Assembly (NCBI RefSeq): GCF_002090115.1
Contig: NZ_BBRK01000004.1
Location: 1,488,001 to 1,552,000 of the forward strand
Direction of reading: 5' to 3'
DNA from: Demequina sp. NBRC 110054
GTDB taxonomy: Bacteria; Actinomycetota; Actinomycetes; Actinomycetales; Demequinaceae
DNA: 64,000 bases
A program made the translations under genes and the position numbers. Positions 44,340-51,953 of this stretch are shown here, piece after piece. The notes under the pieces were generated by a model. The model was not told the origin of the DNA. It saw nothing but the letters and a program-made list of their open reading frames with translations, and searched no databases. Every line of letters starts with the position of its first letter. Position 1 is the stretch's first letter.

Positions 44340-44810
44340 ATGACCGAGGCACGCAAGATGAACGTCGAGTCGTTCAATCTGGACCACACGCAGGTCGACG
44401 CGCCCTACATCCGGCTCGCGGACCGCAAGGTCCTCCCGCACGGCGACGTGCTGAGCAAGTTCGATGTGCGCTTCTGCCAGCCGAACAAGGAGCACCTCGA
44501 GATGGTCGCGGTGCACTCGATCGAGCACTCGTTCGCCGAGTGCGTGCGCGACTTCAGCGTGGACGTCATCGACTTCAGCCCGATGGGCTGCCAGACCGGC
44601 TTCTACCTCATCATGAGCGGCGAGCACACGCCGGAGGACGTCAAGAGCCTCGTGCTCAAGACGATGCGGGCGATGCTCGAGCTCGATGAGGTGCCGGCTG
44701 CGAACGAGGTCCAGTGCGGCTGGGGCGCGAACCACTCGCTCGCCGACATGAAGGACGAGGTCCACGCGTTCCTCGAGAACGCGAACTCCCTCCTGGACGT
44801 GATGCAGTGA
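44340..44810 (+). CDS. luxS: S-ribosylhomocysteine lyase LuxS
   Basis: 156 residues, normal length. The metal-binding HSIEH motif ([11 protein letters not shown]) and the Cys of CGWG near 127, with [11 protein letters not shown] between. LuxS cleaves S-ribosylhomocysteine to homocysteine and DPD, the AI-2 precursor. The overlapping nucleosidase gene makes its substrate, so this pair forms a complete SAH detoxification route. Confidence 0.96.
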
Positions 44811-45520
44811 CCGCCGGCGACATGCCCGCGGTCCTCGTGGCGATGCCCGAGGAGGCGCAGGGCTTCCTCGACCTCTCGGACGGTGCGAAGCAGGTCGCCT
44901 CGACCGACGAGGCCTACGTGGTCACGTCGGGCGACGTCACCTACCTGCTCGTCGTCACAGGAATCGGGATGGTGTCCGCGGCGCGCGCGGCGACGATGGT
45001 CGCGTACGGCGTCATCGGCGGCATCACGCCCACGGCCCTCATCTCCGCGGGCACGTGCGGCGGCATCCCCGGGCACGTGACCGTGGGGGACCTCGTCGCG
45101 CCGTGCTGCGCGCTCGACTGGTCGGCCGACTCGACCTCGATCGGCTACGAGTACGGGCAGGTCCCCGGGCACGCGGCCTTCCACGAGTCTGACGACGACC
45201 TCGTGGACCTCGCCGTCAAGCTCGGTGCGAAGAAGGGCTACCTCGCCTCGGCCAACGCCTTCGCGGTCGCCGCGACGGTGGACCTCATCCGCGAGCGCTT
45301 CCCCAAGGTCATCGCGACCGACATGGAGACCGCCGCAGTGAGCCAGGCCGCCGCGCAGGCGGGCGTGCCGTTCCTGTCCCTGCGATGCGTCTCGGACATG
45401 TGCCAGGGCGACGGGGGAGCCGAGTTCGACGAGCACCTGGACGATGCGGCGGCCAGGTCCGCTCGGGCCGTCCTGGATCTCCTGGCCCGGGAGTCCGTGG
45501 CCAACCCCGCGACGGTCTAG
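44807..45520 (+). CDS. mtnN: 5'-methylthioadenosine/S-adenosylhomocysteine nucleosidase
   Basis: 237 residues of the PNP/UDP family. Seen: [75 protein letters not shown]. The Met-Glu and final Asp are the expected catalytic positions. It removes adenine from MTA and SAH. The GTG at 44807 overlaps the luxS stop (GTGA); ATG 44822 is an alternative start. Futalosine hydrolase is a related fold but luxS linkage favours this call. Confidence 0.88.
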
Positions 45521-45526
45521 CGGGAC

Positions 45527-46024
45527 CTAGCCTTCGAGTCCTTCGAACGGCGATCCCGGCCTCTCGGACGCCTCGGCCGAGGTCACCTCGCGGTCTTCGG
45601 TGTAGTAGTCCTTCAGCGGCACTCCCCAGGTGGTGTGCCATGCCTCGCCGTCGGGAAAGGCGATCACGACGGCGTGGAAGTCGAGGAAGTACTGGGTGAG
45701 CGCGACTGTCGAGCCGTCATCGAGCATGTACTCCAGCCCAGTCGCCCGGGCTCCGTCGATCTCCGCCGCAGGATCTGGCGCCTCGCTTCCAGGCATGTCA
45801 GTGAAGGCGTCGACCAGTTCCTCGATGAGACCCGCGTCGTCGATCGTCGTGCGCGTGACGACAGGCTCATCGGCTCCGGACACCTCGTAGAAGTACATGT
45901 CGATGCTCGTCACGTGGGCAGCGTCGAGCTCGATCGAATGCGTCTGGGTGGGTGCGCAGGCGGAGAGTGCGAGCGCCCCGAGCACGAGGGCCACCACGCC
46001 GGCCTTTCCACTCACCCTGCCCAC
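45527..46024 (-). CDS. Hypothetical lipoprotein
   Basis: 165 residues. A signal peptide with lipobox ALSAC (Cys ~23) is followed by a ~140-residue domain with alternating strands (SIDMYFYEVSGADEPVVTRT, TGLEYMLDDGSTVALTQYF, WHTTWGVPLKDYY). No family recognised. GTG start at 46024 with a GGGGGAT region upstream and TAGGGT as possible -10 further up. Convergent with mtnN, 6 nt apart. Confidence 0.7.
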   Translation of the reverse strand: MGRVSGKAGVVALVLGALALSACAPTQTHSIELDAAHVTSIDMYFYEVSGADEPVVTRTTIDDAGLIEELVDAFTDMPGSEAPDPAAEIDGARATGLEYMLDDGSTVALTQYFLDFHAVVIAFPDGEAWHTTWGVPLKDYYTEDREVTSAEASERPGSPFEGLEG

Positions 46025-46055: not shown

Positions 46056-46826
46056 CTACCGGTGCGTGACGCGCGCCAGGAACTCCTGCGTCGCCGGCTC
46101 CTTCGGGAAGCCGAAGATCTGCTCGGGCGGGCCCTGCTCCAGGATGCGGCCCTGGTGCATGAACACGACGCGGTCGGCGACCGAGCGCGCGAACGACATC
46201 TCGTGCGTCGCCATCAGGATGGTGGAGCCCTGCTCCTTCAGCGAGCGCACGAGGTCGAGCACCTCGCCTACGAGCATCGGGTCCAGCGCGGACGTGATCT
46301 CGTCGAGCAGGAGCAGCTCGGGGTCGGTGAGGATCGCGCGGACGATCGCGACGCGCTGCTGCTGACCGCCTGAGAGGCGGTCGGGGTACTCGTCCACCTT
46401 GTCGCCCAGGCCGAAGCGCGTGAGCAGGTCGACGCCCTTCGCCTTCGCGGTCTCGGCGTCGACGCCGTGGACCTTGCGTGCCGCGAGGGTGACGTTGTCG
46501 ATCACCTTCATGTGCGGGAACAGGTTGAAGTGCTGGAACACGACGCCGATGCGCGCGCGGACCTTGTCCACGTCGATCGCGGGGTCGGTGATGTCGTCTC
46601 CGGACAGGACGATGCGGCCGTCGTCCACGCGCTCGATGAGGTTGATCGTGCGCATGAGGGTCGACTTGCCCGAGCCCGAGGCGCCGATGAGGACGACGAC
46701 CTCGTGCTTGCCGATGCCCAGGTCCACGCCCTTGAGGACGTGGTTGTCGCCGAACAGCTTGTGGACGTCGTGAAGCTCGAGGACGGCGCTTGAGGTGGGG
46801 ACGGCGCCTTGGTCGACGGTGCTCAT
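46056..46826 (-). CDS. Polar amino acid ABC transporter ATP-binding protein (GlnQ-like)
   Basis: 256 residues. Walker A GASGSGKST, Q-loop FQHFNLFPHM, signature LSGGQQQRVAIVRAI, Walker B LLLLDEITSALD, H-loop ATHEMSF. FNLFPH and the short length are typical of the glutamine/polar amino acid importer subfamily. Its ATG overlaps the permease stop (ATGA). The gene order SBP-permease-ATPase is complete for an importer. Confidence 0.93.
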   Translation of the reverse strand: MSTVDQGAVPTSSAVLELHDVHKLFGDNHVLKGVDLGIGKHEVVVLIGASGSGKSTLMRTINLIERVDDGRIVLSGDDITDPAIDVDKVRARIGVVFQHFNLFPHMKVIDNVTLAARKVHGVDAETAKAKGVDLLTRFGLGDKVDEYPDRLSGGQQQRVAIVRAILTDPELLLLDEITSALDPMLVGEVLDLVRSLKEQGSTILMATHEMSFARSVADRVVFMHQGRILEQGPPEQIFGFPKEPATQEFLARVTHR

Positions 46827-47692
46827 ACGGTCCCTCCGATCTGCTCGCGCGCGGCCATTCGGGCCGAGATGCGGTCGGTGAGGCGGATCATCGGGAAGCT
46901 CAGCGCGACGAACAGCAGGCCGGCCACGACGTAGGGCGTGAAGTTGTAGGTGCTCGCCTGGACGATCTGGGCGGCGCGGATCGCGTCGACGGCGCCGAGC
47001 ACGGAGATCAGCCCGACGTCCTTCTGCATCGACACGAAGTCGTTCATGAGCGCGGGGATGACCTTGCGCAGGCCCTGAGGGATGACGACCATGCGCAGCG
47101 TCTGCGCGTGCGACAGGCCGAGCGAGCGGGCCGCGACGCGCTGCGACGGGTGGACGGCCTCCATGCCCGCGCGCAGCACCTCGGCCACGTAGGCGGAGTA
47201 GCACAGCACGATTCCGATGGTGCCGAGCAGCGCGGCGGGGAAGCGGGTGGTGGGGTTCAGCGCGGGGATGCCGAAGCCGACCAGGTACAGCACGATCAGC
47301 ACGGGCAGGCCGCGGAACAGGTCGGTGTACCCGGTGGCGAGTGCGCGCAGCGGGAAGAACACCGGACCGCGCAGCGAGCGCATCACCGCGAGCAGCGTGC
47401 CGATGATCGCGACGCCGATCGTCGCGAAGAACAGGACCTGGATGTTGAGCCACAGGCCCTCGAGGATCTTGGGGAGGCTCTCCCACGCGATCTCGGGGTT
47501 GAAGAAGGCCTGCTGCACGCTCTCCCAGCCGGGGGAGGTGAGGACCAGGGTGCCCGCGACGACGGCGAAGAGCACCGTCGACACGAGCGCGACCAGGACG
47601 GAGCGGCCGGACGCCCGGCGCCGGAATTCGCGTCGCTCGAGCTCGAGCTCGCTGGGCTGCCAGGCGGCCGTGGCCGCTCCGTCGGTGGTCAT
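46823..47692 (-). CDS. Polar amino acid ABC transporter permease
   Basis: 289 residues, HisM/GlnP family. The N-terminal cytoplasmic segment is long (to ~30), then about five to six helices; VAARSLGLSHAQTLRMVVIPQGLRKVIPALMNDFVSM is the EAA loop that docks the ATPase, and LLGTIGIVLCYSAYVAEVLRAGMEAV is a family signature. Coupled to the ATPase by ATGA. Confidence 0.93.
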   Translation of the reverse strand: MTTDGAATAAWQPSELELERREFRRRASGRSVLVALVSTVLFAVVAGTLVLTSPGWESVQQAFFNPEIAWESLPKILEGLWLNIQVLFFATIGVAIIGTLLAVMRSLRGPVFFPLRALATGYTDLFRGLPVLIVLYLVGFGIPALNPTTRFPAALLGTIGIVLCYSAYVAEVLRAGMEAVHPSQRVAARSLGLSHAQTLRMVVIPQGLRKVIPALMNDFVSMQKDVGLISVLGAVDAIRAAQIVQASTYNFTPYVVAGLLFVALSFPMIRLTDRISARMAAREQIGGTV

Positions 47693-47722: not shown

Positions 47723-48607
47723 TTAGTTGAGGACCGGCACGTCGATCGCGTCGGACAGCCACTCGGACTCGAGGTCGGCGAGGGTGCCCTCCGCGGCGAG
47801 GGTGTCGACGGCCTCGGTGACGGGCTCGGTGAGCGCCGAGTCCTTGGGCAGGACCAGGCCGAACTCGTCGCCGCCGGTCGCGTCCGCGAACTGGCCGACG
47901 ACCACGCCGCCATCGAGCTCGACCGCGGCCTGGTACAGGGCGGACGGAAGGTCGGTGACGTAGGCGTCGATCTGGCCGGCGGTGAGCGCGGCGTTCACGT
48001 CGGCCTGGTTGTTGAAGACCTGGACGTTGTCCTCGCCGAGCGCCTCGACGGCGATGTCGTAGGACGTGGTGCCGACGGCGACGCCGACGAGCGCGCCCTC
48101 GAGGTCGGCGGCGCTGGCGGCGTCGGCGTAGTCGTTGCCCTCGACCGAGACGACCGCCTGGGTGGCGGTGTAGTACGCCGAGGAGAAGTCCACGGCCTCC
48201 TTACGCTCCTCGGTGATGGAGAACTGCTGGAGATTGAAGTCCCAGTCCTTGGCGCCGGGCGCGATCGCCTCGTCGAAGCCGGTGCGGACCCAGACGACGT
48301 CCTCGGCGTCGTAGCCGAGCTCCTCGGCGACGGCGTAGGCCACGGCGGCCTCGAAGCCCTCACCGGACTCGGGCTCGTCGCCGACGACCCACGGCTCGTA
48401 GGCGGGCTCGCCAGTCGCGATGGTGAGCTTGCCCTCGGTGACGGTGTCGAGCTCGACGGCGGCCTCGGTGGTCGCGGTGGCGCTCGAGTCGGCGGAGGCC
48501 GACTCGGAGGTCTCGGCGTCGGTCGAGCTCGAGCAGCCCGCGAGCGCGAGCGTCGAGACGGCGAGCAGCGCGACGGAGGCGCGGCGCAGGGTCGGTGCAG
48601 TGAACAT
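47723..48607 (-). CDS. Polar amino acid ABC transporter substrate-binding lipoprotein
   Basis: 294 residues. Lipobox LALAGC near residue 25, a Ser/Thr/Ala linker, then an SBP family 3 fold: GKLTIATGEPAYEPWVV, GFEAAVAYAVAEELGY, WDFNLQQFSITEERKEAVDFSSAYY and VGVAVGTTSYD. The ligand is unknown. AGGAGAG precedes ATG 48607. The leader holds a stem CGAGCGAGATCG / CGATCGCTCG (48636-48661) and a -10 at 48678-48673, so the transporter can be transcribed separately from the upstream SahH-like unit. Confidence 0.92.
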   Translation of the reverse strand: MFTAPTLRRASVALLAVSTLALAGCSSSTDAETSESASADSSATATTEAAVELDTVTEGKLTIATGEPAYEPWVVGDEPESGEGFEAAVAYAVAEELGYDAEDVVWVRTGFDEAIAPGAKDWDFNLQQFSITEERKEAVDFSSAYYTATQAVVSVEGNDYADAASAADLEGALVGVAVGTTSYDIAVEALGEDNVQVFNNQADVNAALTAGQIDAYVTDLPSALYQAAVELDGGVVVGQFADATGGDEFGLVLPKDSALTEPVTEAVDTLAAEGTLADLESEWLSDAIDVPVLN

Positions 48608-48672: not shown

Positions 48673-48678
48673 ATCCTA
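48673..48678 (-). promoter_or_regulatory. -10 element of the ABC transporter operon
   Basis: TAGGAT on the minus strand, overlapping the 3' end of the cupin gene; leader ~60 nt. Confidence 0.45.
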
Positions 48679-49107
48679 CTCGGAGGACTCGGCGAGCCTC
48701 CAATCGGCAAAATCGAAACCTGGTGAGACAACGCACGAGACCAGCGCCTCCGCATCGTCCAGGAGCCGTGCCGACTGCCAGACCCCCGCGGGGACGAGGC
48801 ACTGCTGGACGTCGCCGCCCACCGCGTCGGGGCCAAGTCGGACGGTCGTGACCGAGCCGGGCTCCCCGCCCGAGCCGCCGAGCGACAGCTCGAGCGCGCC
48901 GGGCCCGTGCCATAGCCACACCTCGTCGGACGTGACCACGTGCCACGCGCTGTGCTCGCCTGGCGCGAGGAGGTAGTGGATCATCGTCACGGCCGGGCGG
49001 TCGCCGCCGTCCGTCGAGACGGGGATCGGCGACGTGTAGTAGCGCCGGAACCAGCCGCCCTCGGGGTGCGGCTCGAGGTTCAGGGACGATGCGGTCGCGG
49101 GGATCAT
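48676..49107 (-). CDS. DUF985-type cupin protein
   Basis: 143 residues. LEPHPEGGWFRRYYTS, TMIHYLLAPGEHSAWHVVTSDEVWLWHGPG and PAGVWQSARL are the cupin motifs of the DUF985 family, in which HxW and a later Glu/His may bind metal or a sugar-like ligand. Its ATG overlaps the amidohydrolase stop (ATGA). Function unknown; membership of this unit suggests it acts on a product of the amidohydrolase/SahH-like pair. Confidence 0.85.
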   Translation of the reverse strand: MIPATASSLNLEPHPEGGWFRRYYTSPIPVSTDGGDRPAVTMIHYLLAPGEHSAWHVVTSDEVWLWHGPGALELSLGGSGGEPGSVTTVRLGPDAVGGDVQQCLVPAGVWQSARLLDDAEALVSCVVSPGFDFADWRLAESSE

Positions 49108-50423
49108 CTGTGGTCCTCCTGGACTCCGGTGGTCGCGGTGAAGGCGGCGGTCGCGTAGCGCACGCGTCCCGCGGTGACGGTCGCGGCGGCCCTGCCCTCG
49201 CCCGACTCGGCGAGCGTGGTGAGCGTCTCGGTGACGTCGGTGACGGGCACGTCGAAGAAGGCGAGGTCGGCGTTGGTGCCGACCGCGAGATACCCGGTGC
49301 GGCCCACGCCCTCGTCGATGCCCATCGCGTGCGCGCCGCCCAGGGTCGCGGCGCGCAGCAGCCGCTCGGCGAGGTCGTCGTGCGAGTAGCCCTGGTTCCT
49401 TGCGATGCGGAAGAGCGAGGCGACATCGGCCATCGGGTCGAGCGACGGGGACGACGACAGCGAGTCCGTGCCGACAGCGATCGGGCTGCCCTCGCGCAGG
49501 TATGCGGCGACGGGCGGGGCGTCGAGGCCGATCACCTCGTTCGAGCGCGGGCACAGTGCGACGGTCGTGCCGCGGGCGCGCAGGATCGCGCGGTCGGACT
49601 CGCTCATGTAGACGCCGTGCGCGATGTGGCAGTCGGGGCCGAGCACGCCGAGGTGGTCCACGTACTCGGTGGCCGACGTGCCGAAGCCCGCTTGGCGCAG
49701 CTCGAGCAGGCTGCCGAGCTCGAGGTTCTGCCACGGCTCGTTGCGGTCGTGGTCGAACTCGCGCTCGATGCCCGACTCGCCCAGGTGGATGTGGATGCGG
49801 CTGCCGCGCTCGCGCACGATGTCGGGGATCTCGAGCAGCGGCATGATCTCGAGCGAGTACGGCGCGTGCGGCGACAGGCCGGTGCCGGGGCGCGTGGGGA
49901 GCGAGTCGAGCGCGGCCTCGACCTCGGCGCGGCCCTGGGTGCGCCACTCGTCGTTGGTCCAGTCGATGACCTCCCAATACGTGATGCCCGCGAGACCCGC
50001 GTCGTGCAGGGCCCTCGCCGCCTCGGGGTCGGTCACGATGTCGGCGGCCGCCGTGACGCCCGCGCCGATCATCTGCTCCGCGCCGAGCTTGGCGTCGGCT
50101 GCCCAGTCGTGCGGCTCGTCGTACACGGGGTTGAAGGCCTTGGCCCAGTCCTCGAAGCCCTTGTACTGGCCTCGACCGACCTCGGACATGCCCGTGTACT
50201 GGAGGTGCGTGTGCGCGTTGACGAGGCCCGGCGTGAGCACGCCGTCCCAGCGGACGTGCGTGAAGGGCAGGCCGCGCTCCTCGAGCGACTGCTCGACCCA
50301 CGTGCGCGAGCCGACGTGCAGGATGCGCTCCCCGCGCACGGCGATCGCGCCGTCCAGGATGGGAGGTGCGGTCACGGGCAGCACGAGGGCCGCCGAGTAC
50401 AGGGTGACCGGGAACGCGGTCAT
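49104..50423 (-). CDS. Amidohydrolase, MTA/SAH-deaminase-like
   Basis: 439 residues. The metal-binding HTH is at 71-73 in PGLVNAHTHLQYTG; SPHAPYSLEI, HIHLGESGIER, HIAHGVYMSESD, LCPRSNEVIGL and VGTDSLSSSPSLDPM follow, the pattern of the ATZ/TRZ and nucleoside-deaminase subgroup (MtaD, SsnA, aminodeoxyfutalosine deaminase). The upstream overlapping gene encodes an SahH homologue, so deamination of SAH or a related adenosyl compound is a reasonable inference. Both stop and start overlap neighbours by 4 nt, so stoichiometry is fixed by coupling. The substrate is unproven. Confidence 0.82.
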   Translation of the reverse strand: MTAFPVTLYSAALVLPVTAPPILDGAIAVRGERILHVGSRTWVEQSLEERGLPFTHVRWDGVLTPGLVNAHTHLQYTGMSEVGRGQYKGFEDWAKAFNPVYDEPHDWAADAKLGAEQMIGAGVTAAADIVTDPEAARALHDAGLAGITYWEVIDWTNDEWRTQGRAEVEAALDSLPTRPGTGLSPHAPYSLEIMPLLEIPDIVRERGSRIHIHLGESGIEREFDHDRNEPWQNLELGSLLELRQAGFGTSATEYVDHLGVLGPDCHIAHGVYMSESDRAILRARGTTVALCPRSNEVIGLDAPPVAAYLREGSPIAVGTDSLSSSPSLDPMADVASLFRIARNQGYSHDDLAERLLRAATLGGAHAMGIDEGVGRTGYLAVGTNADLAFFDVPVTDVTETLTTLAESGEGRAAATVTAGRVRYATAAFTATTGVQEDHR

Positions 50424-51940
50424 GCAGTCTCCTTGGGGGTCTTGCTCGCGGACGATGGGGTGGCGGGCCGGGCGGCGGCGTAGCGGGGCGAGCGCCAGTC
50501 GGTCTCGGCCCCATACGATGCGTCGGTCGCCGGGGTGAGTTCGAGGCCGCGGGCCTCGGCGGCCGCCTTGCCGACCGTGGCGACCGCGGCGTCGGACAGC
50601 GCGTGGACTCCCACGCCGGGGCGGGTGCGCACCAGCTCCGCGACCGCGGCGAGCTGGGTCGCGAACGACAGGTCCATGATCTCGATCGGGTTGCCCTCGG
50701 CGGCGGTGACGTTGATGCAGCCGCCGCGGTCCAGGACCAGGGTGTGGGCGGGCTCCGCGACGTCGAGGGCGCGCGCGACCGCGCCGGCCACGATGAGCGG
50801 CTCGAGGTGAGCGCCGTCGAGCATCACCTCGCCGGGCACGCCTCCTGCGACCGCGACCACGGTCGCGGCGGCGAGGATCTCGGGCGTGACGGTCGCGGGG
50901 GCGCCCGTGCACGAGACGACGAGCGCGCCCTGGGCGAGCTCCTCCGACGGGCCGACGTCGAAGCCGTCGTGGACGGCGAGCAGCGCGCGGACCGGGTCGA
51001 TCTCCGAGACGCGCACCTCCGCGCCGAGAGCGTTGAGATGCGCGGCGACGCCGACGCCGACGGGGCCGTAGCCGATCACGAGCACGGGGAGGTCGCGGAC
51101 GGTCATGTCGACCTGCTCGAGCAGGTCCGCGATCGCGAACACGCACGACTGGCCCGTGCCGTAGCGGTTGTCGAAGCCGGTCTTGGTGGCCGCGTCGTTC
51201 ACCGCGACGACGGGGGTCTTGAGCGCGCCCTGCGCGGCCATGCGGCGCAGCGGGGTAAGGCCCGAGGTGGTCTCCTCGGTCACGCCGATCCAGCCCTCGA
51301 CCAGCTCCGGGGCGGCCTCGTGCGCGAGGCGGACCACGTGAGAGCCGTCGTCGACCACGACGTCGAAGCCGCGGCGCAGCCACGCGAGGGCGGCCTCGCG
51401 CTCGGCGTCGCCCGAGAGGGTCGCGTCGGCATCGACCGGCACACCGCGGTCCCTGAGCGCCTGCGCGACCTCGAGGTCGGTCTCGTCGGGGTGCGCGTAG
51501 ACGGCCACGTCGGCGCCCGCGTCGCGCAGCATGAGTGCGAGGTTCGCGGTCTTGGGCTCGAGGGTCATCGAGACGCCGATGCACAGGCCGCTCACGGTGC
51601 CGGCCGCCTTGAGCTCGGCTGCGAGCGTCGCAGACACGGGCATGTGCGCGCGGGCGAAGTCGAGTCGCCCGCCCGCGTCTCCCCGCGAGGTCAGGGGCTT
51701 CCCGCCCAAGGCGAGCGCGCCATCGTCCGCGCTCGCGTCGATGTCGAGCACGTCCGGGCCCGTCGCATCGTCCTCGACGAGGCGTGCGCCGAGGGCGCGG
51801 GCCATGCCGGCGACGGCGAGCGCCGCCTGGGTGTCCTCCTCGTCGGCGCTGACGCGGATGGGGCGTCCGGCGATGAGGAGGTTGGTCTCGCGGGCGAAGC
51901 GGCGCAGCAGGCGCTCGGCCTCAAGCACGGGATGTGGCAT
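50420..51940 (-). CDS. Divergent adenosylhomocysteinase (SahH)-like protein
   Basis: 506 residues. The S-adenosylhomocysteine hydrolase fold is clear: MTLEPKTANLAL (~125-136), VVVDDGSHVV (~194-203), EETTSGLTPL (222-231), NDAATKTGFDNRYG (248-261), the NAD motif GYGPVGVG (290-297), and NVTAAEGNPIEIMDLSF near 410-426. Equivalents of human Lys186, Asp190 and Asn191 are kept (K253, D257, N258), but the His55, His301 and His353 positions appear to be Ser124, Gly and Asn417, and the usual C-terminal KPDHYRY tail is missing. It is therefore probably not a standard SAH hydrolase; S-inosylhomocysteine or another nucleoside thioether is possible. Leaderless ATG at 51940, first gene of the unit. Confidence 0.78.
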   Translation of the reverse strand: MPHPVLEAERLLRRFARETNLLIAGRPIRVSADEEDTQAALAVAGMARALGARLVEDDATGPDVLDIDASADDGALALGGKPLTSRGDAGGRLDFARAHMPVSATLAAELKAAGTVSGLCIGVSMTLEPKTANLALMLRDAGADVAVYAHPDETDLEVAQALRDRGVPVDADATLSGDAEREAALAWLRRGFDVVVDDGSHVVRLAHEAAPELVEGWIGVTEETTSGLTPLRRMAAQGALKTPVVAVNDAATKTGFDNRYGTGQSCVFAIADLLEQVDMTVRDLPVLVIGYGPVGVGVAAHLNALGAEVRVSEIDPVRALLAVHDGFDVGPSEELAQGALVVSCTGAPATVTPEILAAATVVAVAGGVPGEVMLDGAHLEPLIVAGAVARALDVAEPAHTLVLDRGGCINVTAAEGNPIEIMDLSFATQLAAVAELVRTRPGVGVHALSDAAVATVGKAAAEARGLELTPATDASYGAETDWRSPRYAAARPATPSSASKTPKETA

Positions 51941-51947
51941 GGCCTCA

Positions 51948-51953
51948 ATTCTA
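51948..51953 (-). promoter_or_regulatory. -10 element of the SahH-like operon (leaderless)
   Basis: TAGAAT on the minus strand, near-consensus, 7 nt before the ATG; no Shine-Dalgarno. Confidence 0.6.

Follow-up and report, generated by a model that had tools for sequence, protein, structure and literature searches.

The S1 operon of Demequina

The window analysed here, the 64,000 nt from position 1,488,001 to 1,552,000 of contig NZ_BBRK01000004.1 of Demequina sp. NBRC 110054, contains an operon that begins with a gene for a relative of the S-adenosylhomocysteine (SAH) hydrolase SahH, called S1 below (protein P0002), and continues with genes for an amidohydrolase and a DUF985 cupin (Table 1). 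PF05221/PF00670, PF01979 and PF06172 exceeded their Pfam cut-offs in S1, the amidohydrolase and the cupin, respectively. Judged by sequence, S1 is a separate, rewired clade of the SahH/S-inosylhomocysteine hydrolase kind in a conserved operon, and it probably helps the cell to consume an adenosine-like compound.

An earlier note on this DNA had placed these three genes correctly, together with the 4-nt overlap of S1 and the amidohydrolase gene, and had recognised the DUF985 cupin, as the PF06172 score confirms; the second junction also overlaps by 4 nt. The unit is larger than the three genes described: past the cupin, the same strand carries genes for the three parts of an ATP-binding cassette (ABC) transporter, ending at about 46056. 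This transporter had been overlooked, as had the taxonomic breadth of the system and the fusion of S1 with the amidohydrolase found in some genomes.

Table 1. Features of the S1 operon and its surroundings (positions in the window)
Feature	Position	Strand	Remarks
S1, SahH-like NAD-binding protein, 506 aa	50420..51940	-	ATG at 51940, stop ends 50420; PF05221/PF00670
Amidohydrolase, probable deaminase of an adenosine derivative, 439 aa	49104..50423	-	PF01979; ATGA overlap with S1
DUF985 cupin, 143 aa	48676..49107	-	PF06172; ATGA overlap with amidohydrolase
Solute-binding protein of ABC transporter (SBP_bac_3), conserved Arg R135	47723..48607	-	Pfam
ABC transporter permease (BPD_transp_1)	46823..47692	-	Pfam
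ABC transporter ATPase	46056..46826	-	start set one codon upstream of scanned stretch 46059-46823
TAGAAT, -10-like box	51948..51953	-	7 nt before S1 ATG
luxS	44340..44810	+	SAH route of the window genome
mtnN-like nucleosidase	about 44807..45520	+	SAH route of the window genome

Of the 21 other Demequina loci printed, 19 have TAGACT or TAGAAT at much the same position, so that the S1 mRNA is probably leaderless. The divergent gene upstream of S1 we take to be mfd. Riboswitch control of the operon was considered and dropped, since an Rfam search at gathering scores returned two tRNAs and nothing else in the window, and no match in eight loci. An open reading frame (ORF) at 45527-46024, between mtnN and the ATPase gene, has a lipoprotein-like start and gave no Pfam match.

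Family, fold and active-site residues of S1

S1 scored above the cut-offs of the SAH hydrolase (SAHH) superfamily (57.6 and 55 bits against 25 and 27 for PF05221 and PF00670) and below those of the adenosylhomocysteinase equivalogs (EC 3.3.1.1): the best, PRK05476.2-3, gave 259.8 against 275 bits, and TIGR00936 gave 226.5 against 497.6 bits. The nearest solved sequences were thermophilic and archaeal-type SAHHs, including 7R3A. The AlphaFold model (pLDDT 92.6) matched SAHH structures, with a TM-score of 0.90, by target length, for 3x2f_B.

Homology of P0002 to canonical SahH spans about residues 92-474. Residues 1-89 (window 51674-51940) are predicted with high confidence to form an extra N-terminal alpha/beta segment, which is absent from the short S1 proteins of the tandem loci described below and of L069, L075 and L080. 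A search of solved sequences with these 89 residues gave a single, weak match (E 0.32).

In a multiple alignment, the columns of His55, His301 and His353 of human SahH are occupied by T126, G367 and N417 in the window S1; the first and last were also obtained pairwise. Among 93 S1 rows the His55 column held V in 57, T in 23, I in 11 and F in 2, while the His301 column was G and the His353 column N in every row. The 93 rows are not all independent, since near-identical sequences remain (e.g. L031 and L092); the table dropped L032, L033, L035, L037, L040, L066 and L113 (repeat genomes) and L089, and L097 and L103 also stand outside it. In L089, from Demequina litorisediminis, S1 is split over three frames, as a pseudogene or by an assembly error.

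The loss of three histidines had been proposed in the earlier note and is confirmed by these columns. The histidines could have been conserved at shifted positions; this was looked for and ruled out, because P0002 has histidines only at 3, 99, 150, 201, 207, 301, 324, 378, 399 and 446, and no column of the 93 rows was invariantly histidine (80 rows at best).

Residues kept in all 93 rows were E128, K130, D198, T224, K253, D257, N258, N410 and M422. K253, D257, N258 and D198 correspond to Lys186, Asp190, Asn191 and Asp131 in every row, which upholds the reported retention of K253, D257 and N258. From the HxExK motif of S-inosylhomocysteine hydrolases, the Glu and Lys (E128, K130) were kept throughout and the His was absent. 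The Phe362 column held F in 87 rows and L in 6. Every S1 row had R204, which occurred in no more than 2 of 15 histidine-bearing archaeal-type relatives; the D134 column was acidic in all 15 of these relatives and in only 1 of the 93 S1 rows (H 66, S 18).

The roles of these residues are known from related enzymes, described here and below from excerpts of the cited papers. In mouse SAHH, His55, Asp131 and His301 hold the 5'-OH and the attacking water, Thr157 and Lys186 bind the 3'-OH, Glu156 and Asp190 bind the 2'-OH, and His353 touches the base via its main chain (PMC4647836). In the lupin enzyme, according to a review, the Lys deprotonates the 3'-OH, the Asp takes the C4' proton and the His protonates the leaving sulfur; the His-Phe pair of the GHF motif is described there as a gate (PMC13406329). 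The HxExK enzymes tested prefer S-inosylhomocysteine, their Glu contacting N1 and their Lys O6 (PMC10978960). Set against the S1 alignment, these roles suggest that hypoxanthine reading, 3' oxidation and the C4' base survive in S1 and that its 5' side is gone.

Two arguments of the earlier note carry less weight than the residues themselves. N417 does replace a base-contacting histidine; since the contact made by His353 is a main-chain one, the replacement need not harm base binding. The C-terminal tail is indeed missing. As a mark of lost function it fails, because a shortened C-terminus is also described for archaeal SAHHs (PMC10978960), and an enzyme inactive on account of its short tail was rejected on the same ground.

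Partners and distribution of S1

Among 297 genomes of the order, S1 was found in 34 (E<=1e-60; next match 2.5e-34), and the amidohydrolase, also at E<=1e-60, in the identical 34 and in none of the other 263. Loci were scanned in the best 80 of at least 547 genome-contig loci, a sample that leans to near relatives; eight of them form a histidine-bearing outgroup and the other 72 were counted as S1 loci. In 68 of the 72, the amidohydrolase gene lies on the same strand within 6 kb of S1 or is fused to it, and in 35 the two genes overlap by 4 nt (starts placed by script). Fusions in one ORF occur in Rarobacter faecitabidus (L059, S1 from about 9001) and in genome G242 (L023/L113), the L023 fusion being 74% identical over 912 residues to that of L059. 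The remaining loci, L073, L087, L093 and L103, have no paired amidohydrolase; L087 is cut by a contig end and L103 carries an amidohydrolase of another cluster. The coupling to an amidohydrolase of the methylthioadenosine (MTA)/SAH-deaminase type, claimed in the earlier note, is thus real and conserved.

The amidohydrolase has intact metal and base-contact motifs, with H71, H73, H186, H213, E216, H269 and D320 invariant in 32 rows. Its best profile matches were 4dyk (1.6e-63), 4gbd (1.8e-63) and 4f0r (1.8e-60). Its structure matched 4gbd_A, whose title names methylthio-coformycin, with Z 43.5 and a root-mean-square deviation of 2.7 over 397 residues, several relatives being tied within 1. None of the 25 NCBIfam cut-offs shown was reached (56 against 779 bits for PRK15493, 105.9 against 522 bits for PRK07228). 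A link to aminofutalosine and menaquinone was ruled out: a search of 13 genomes, S1 being present in 11, gave no match to MqnA/MqnD-type genes (PF02621); the control matched in 4 of 14.

The 72 S1 loci comprised 67 from Actinomycetota, 3 from Pseudomonadota and 1 each from Bacillota and Dormibacterota. PF05221 missed S1 in 1 of 18 genomes searched (L057), so the profile alone undercounts S1. A search by phylum drew in other archaeal-type enzymes along with S1 and does not enter the counts.

In a tree of 71 rows, built by a quick method with canonical SahH as outgroup, S1 formed one clade (SH-aLRT 98) and S2 another (99). S2 is a histidine-bearing SahH copy that precedes S1 in seven loci (L064, L067, L073, L077, L087, L093 and L103); the tandem arrangement suggests either that the gene was duplicated and the copies took on separate tasks or that the two proteins form a mixed complex. 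The S1 of L103 branches deepest; with P126 and A367 but H417 retained, it is, from its sequence, an intermediate state in the loss of the histidines. Five Bacillota loci (L101, L104, L105, L106 and L108) have a histidine-bearing archaeal-type SahH with an amidohydrolase and a PNP-type gene close by; L101 also carries SpeD and L105 an IF-2B/MtnA-like gene. These loci are apparently the textbook deaminate-then-hydrolyse arrangement and possibly a true bacterial SAH-deamination route.

An SBP_bac_3-type protein was present in 47 of the 72 loci (by sequence cluster; Pfam was run on L073 and the window), a lower bound, since ORF calls merged some genes. Its arginine R135, in what we take to be the usual carboxylate-binding position, was found in 48 of 48 rows. 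Other loci carry other uptake systems: an SBP_bac_1/TOBE ABC system at L077 (Pfam) and at L064, L067 and L087 (cluster), with a LacI regulator at L064; parts of an ECF transporter at L069 and L075; an SBP_bac_8 protein at L080; and, at L103, a Bmp/PnrA-like system next to the tandem SahH genes. Within 10 kb of S1, IU_nuc_hydro-type genes were found at L077, L080, L086, L091, L095 and L098, and PNP_UDP_1-type genes at L078, L081, L092, L093 and L102 (Pfam on L077, L080, L092 and L093; the others tblastn or cluster matches). The DUF985 cupin was found by clustering in 46 of the 72 loci. For 3LZZ, a solved DUF985 protein, GDP is listed (PMC11594714), a hint by analogy that the cupin may bind a purine nucleotide.

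The survey of genomes proposed in the earlier note also bears on the housekeeping SAH route. Fifteen of the 34 S1 genomes have LuxS, and their single SahH-type match is S1. The other 19 lack LuxS and carry a further SahH-type match; the two such matches read, at L112 and L114, have canonical motifs. Since LuxS or a second SahH-type match is present in all 34, S1 is not the housekeeping SAH route, which supports the earlier proposal of a non-housekeeping substrate. In the two genomes of the same genus that lack S1 (G284, G293), a SahH match was found and LuxS was not, and a PF05221 profile search of the window genome found no second SahH. S1 is independent of which SAH route a genome uses.

The luxS and mtnN genes that had been noted beside the S1 unit are there (Table 1). 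In each of the four luxS-bearing Demequina seen (the window genome, G028, G173 and L041; loci L006, L007/L033 and L041), both genes are no more than about 6 kb away from S1. The window has luxS downstream of the operon; the other three have it divergent from S1, at a distance of less than 0.2 kb.

A candidate salvage pathway and its alternatives

Our leading explanation, still a tentative one, is that the S1 operon encodes an auxiliary pathway for the import and salvage of an exogenous 5'-substituted adenosine derivative. The ABC system would take up the compound and the amidohydrolase, to go by its family, fold and gene pairing, would convert the adenine to hypoxanthine. S1 would hold the inosyl product through E128 (N1) and K130 (O6), as placed by alignment, and oxidise the ribose 3'-OH with bound NAD+ through K253, D257, N258 and T224. 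D198 would then take the C4' proton, the 5' substituent would be expelled, and the NADH would reduce the ribose back. S1 lacks the two histidines that hold and protonate the 5' group and the attacking water, so its leaving group, or the fate of that group, would have to differ from homocysteine and water. The 5' group might be a carboxylate-bearing thioether or a sulfonium, for example, perhaps held by the invariant R204. In some lineages a nucleosidase, to judge from the neighbouring genes, may release the base.

The earlier note had suggested a bacterial version of the methanogen route. Of this, the deaminate-first order is supported by the gene pairing and by the retained Glu and Lys of HxExK; a plain copy of the SAH-to-S-inosylhomocysteine route is not, since S1 is a separate, rewired clade. 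A version of that route with the histidines kept seems to exist in Bacillota, and the histidine-bearing copy S2 precedes S1 in seven loci.

Several observations weigh against the salvage pathway proposed here. L073, L093 and L103 have S1 without a paired-type amidohydrolase nearby. The SBP_bac_3 protein is absent from 25 of the 72 loci and the cupin from 26 (by clustering; some absences come from contig ends and merged ORF calls). In the solute-binding protein, L094 and 4 of 7 Bifidobacterium rows have another residue for the Asp at the usual amine site, which makes an amino-acid ligand uncertain. The proximity of nucleosidases is a raw list of loci with no background rate. The Glu156 column is E in 87 and Q in 6 of the 93 rows, and the role of R204 is suggested by its position only. 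To our knowledge there is also no precedent for 5' elimination without the histidines, the related dehydratase AgmF needing its own. In AgmF, Ala at the equivalents of His55 or His301 abolished activity (PMC8599513).

A bolder form of the same pathway, which we regard as doubtful, is that S1 catalyses a new NAD+-dependent reaction, a histidine-free 5' elimination from an imported and deaminated adenosyl compound such as an inosyl sulfonium derived from S-adenosylmethionine. An inosyl sulfonium could eliminate without an acid histidine, because a neutral leaving group needs no proton. If this were so, the tandem S2-S1 operons would salvage two related adenosyl compounds side by side. In the open-licence PubMed Central literature, no description was found of the operon or of a SahH relative without its histidines, and the excerpts of a paper on 2'-O-methyl nucleosides (PMC12709175) describe no such operon.

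Ordinary SAH salvage, in which the amidohydrolase makes S-inosylhomocysteine and S1 yields inosine and homocysteine with other groups replacing the histidines, would explain the retained Glu and Lys of HxExK, R135 of the solute-binding protein (if its assumed role holds, suited to a carboxylate ligand such as SAH) and the closeness of luxS and mtnN to S1 in Demequina. We consider it unlikely: His55 and His301 are lost, as is the acidic D134 column in all but one row, and every S1 genome has another SAH route or SahH-type match. S2 moreover keeps the histidines beside S1 in the seven tandem loci, so S1 should do something different.

The intact D198, T224, K253, D257 and N258 beside a stripped 5' site would also suit a 3' oxidation followed by other sugar chemistry, either base loss via the 3'-keto compound or D198-mediated inversion at C4', the cupin, present in 46 loci, acting on the keto sugar. 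This is improbable: an S1 that removed the base would leave no need for the separate nucleosidases found nearby in several lineages, and no precedent appeared in the literature searched.

There is little likelihood that the amidohydrolase strips an N6 substituent, as from tRNA-derived N6-modified adenosine or a cytokinin riboside, and that S1 takes plain inosine. The superfamily does include substituted-amine hydrolases, triazine hydrolases and AtzC were among the structural matches, the Arg of the solute-binding protein is conserved and IU_nuc_hydro lies beside some S1-amidohydrolase pairs; inosine, on the other hand, requires no SahH-like step ahead of a nucleosidase, and the best-scoring solved relatives are of the MTA-deaminase type, not N6-strippers. 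An S1 that is a catalytically dead SahH fold, regulating or scaffolding the deaminase, would account for the three lost histidines and for the fusions in two genomes and is just as hard to credit, the invariance of K253, D257, N258, D198, T224, E128 and K130 in all 93 rows being unexpected for a pseudoenzyme.

Comparison with known systems

SahH is usually treated as one reaction; the S1 clade would keep its base reading and 3' oxidation and discard its 5' chemistry, usually within an operon that looks catabolic. S1 is probably misnamed in databases and, if the proposed pathway is true, some genes annotated as adenosylhomocysteinase are not SAH hydrolases. Six Bifidobacterium SahH-like proteins (L084, L085, L088, L090, L092 and L102) were of the histidine-less S1 type, and a metabolic model of Bifidobacterium longum BB-46 proposes an adenosylhomocysteinase gene, itself outside the six proteins compared, as the step from SAH to homocysteine (PMC8660834). 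The S1-amidohydrolase pair offers defined candidates for nucleoside use in soil, plant and gut settings.

The canonical SahH/AHCY (EC 3.3.1.1) of Demequina differs from S1 in its HMTTQ or HMTVQ base motif, its three histidines and its tail ending in HYRY. The amidohydrolase resembles the MTA/SAH and 5'-deoxyadenosine deaminases (4gbd, 4f0r, TM0936, DadD) in fold and in the HxH, PHAPY, HxxE, His and Asp motifs. It is only 22-24% identical to 4gbd, 4f0r and TM0936, has its own conserved motif around NAHTHLQYTGM and stays below the NCBIfam cut-offs of the named deaminases.

AgmF, a dehydratase of angustmycin biosynthesis, is like S1 a SahH homologue, one with a different nucleoside reaction and, in the excerpts of its description, no SAH activity; unlike S1, it is biosynthetic and keeps and needs its 5' histidines, H56 and H299 (PMC8599513). 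The archaeal and archaeal-type S-inosyl-L-homocysteine hydrolases with HxExK (7R37, 7R38, 7R3A) share with S1 the fold, the Lys, Asp and Asn residues, the Glu and Lys of the base motif, the short C-terminus and the link to a deaminase. S1 differs from them in lacking the His of HxExK, of the GHF gate and of GHP, in its invariant R204, and in belonging mostly to an uptake operon instead of a housekeeping route.

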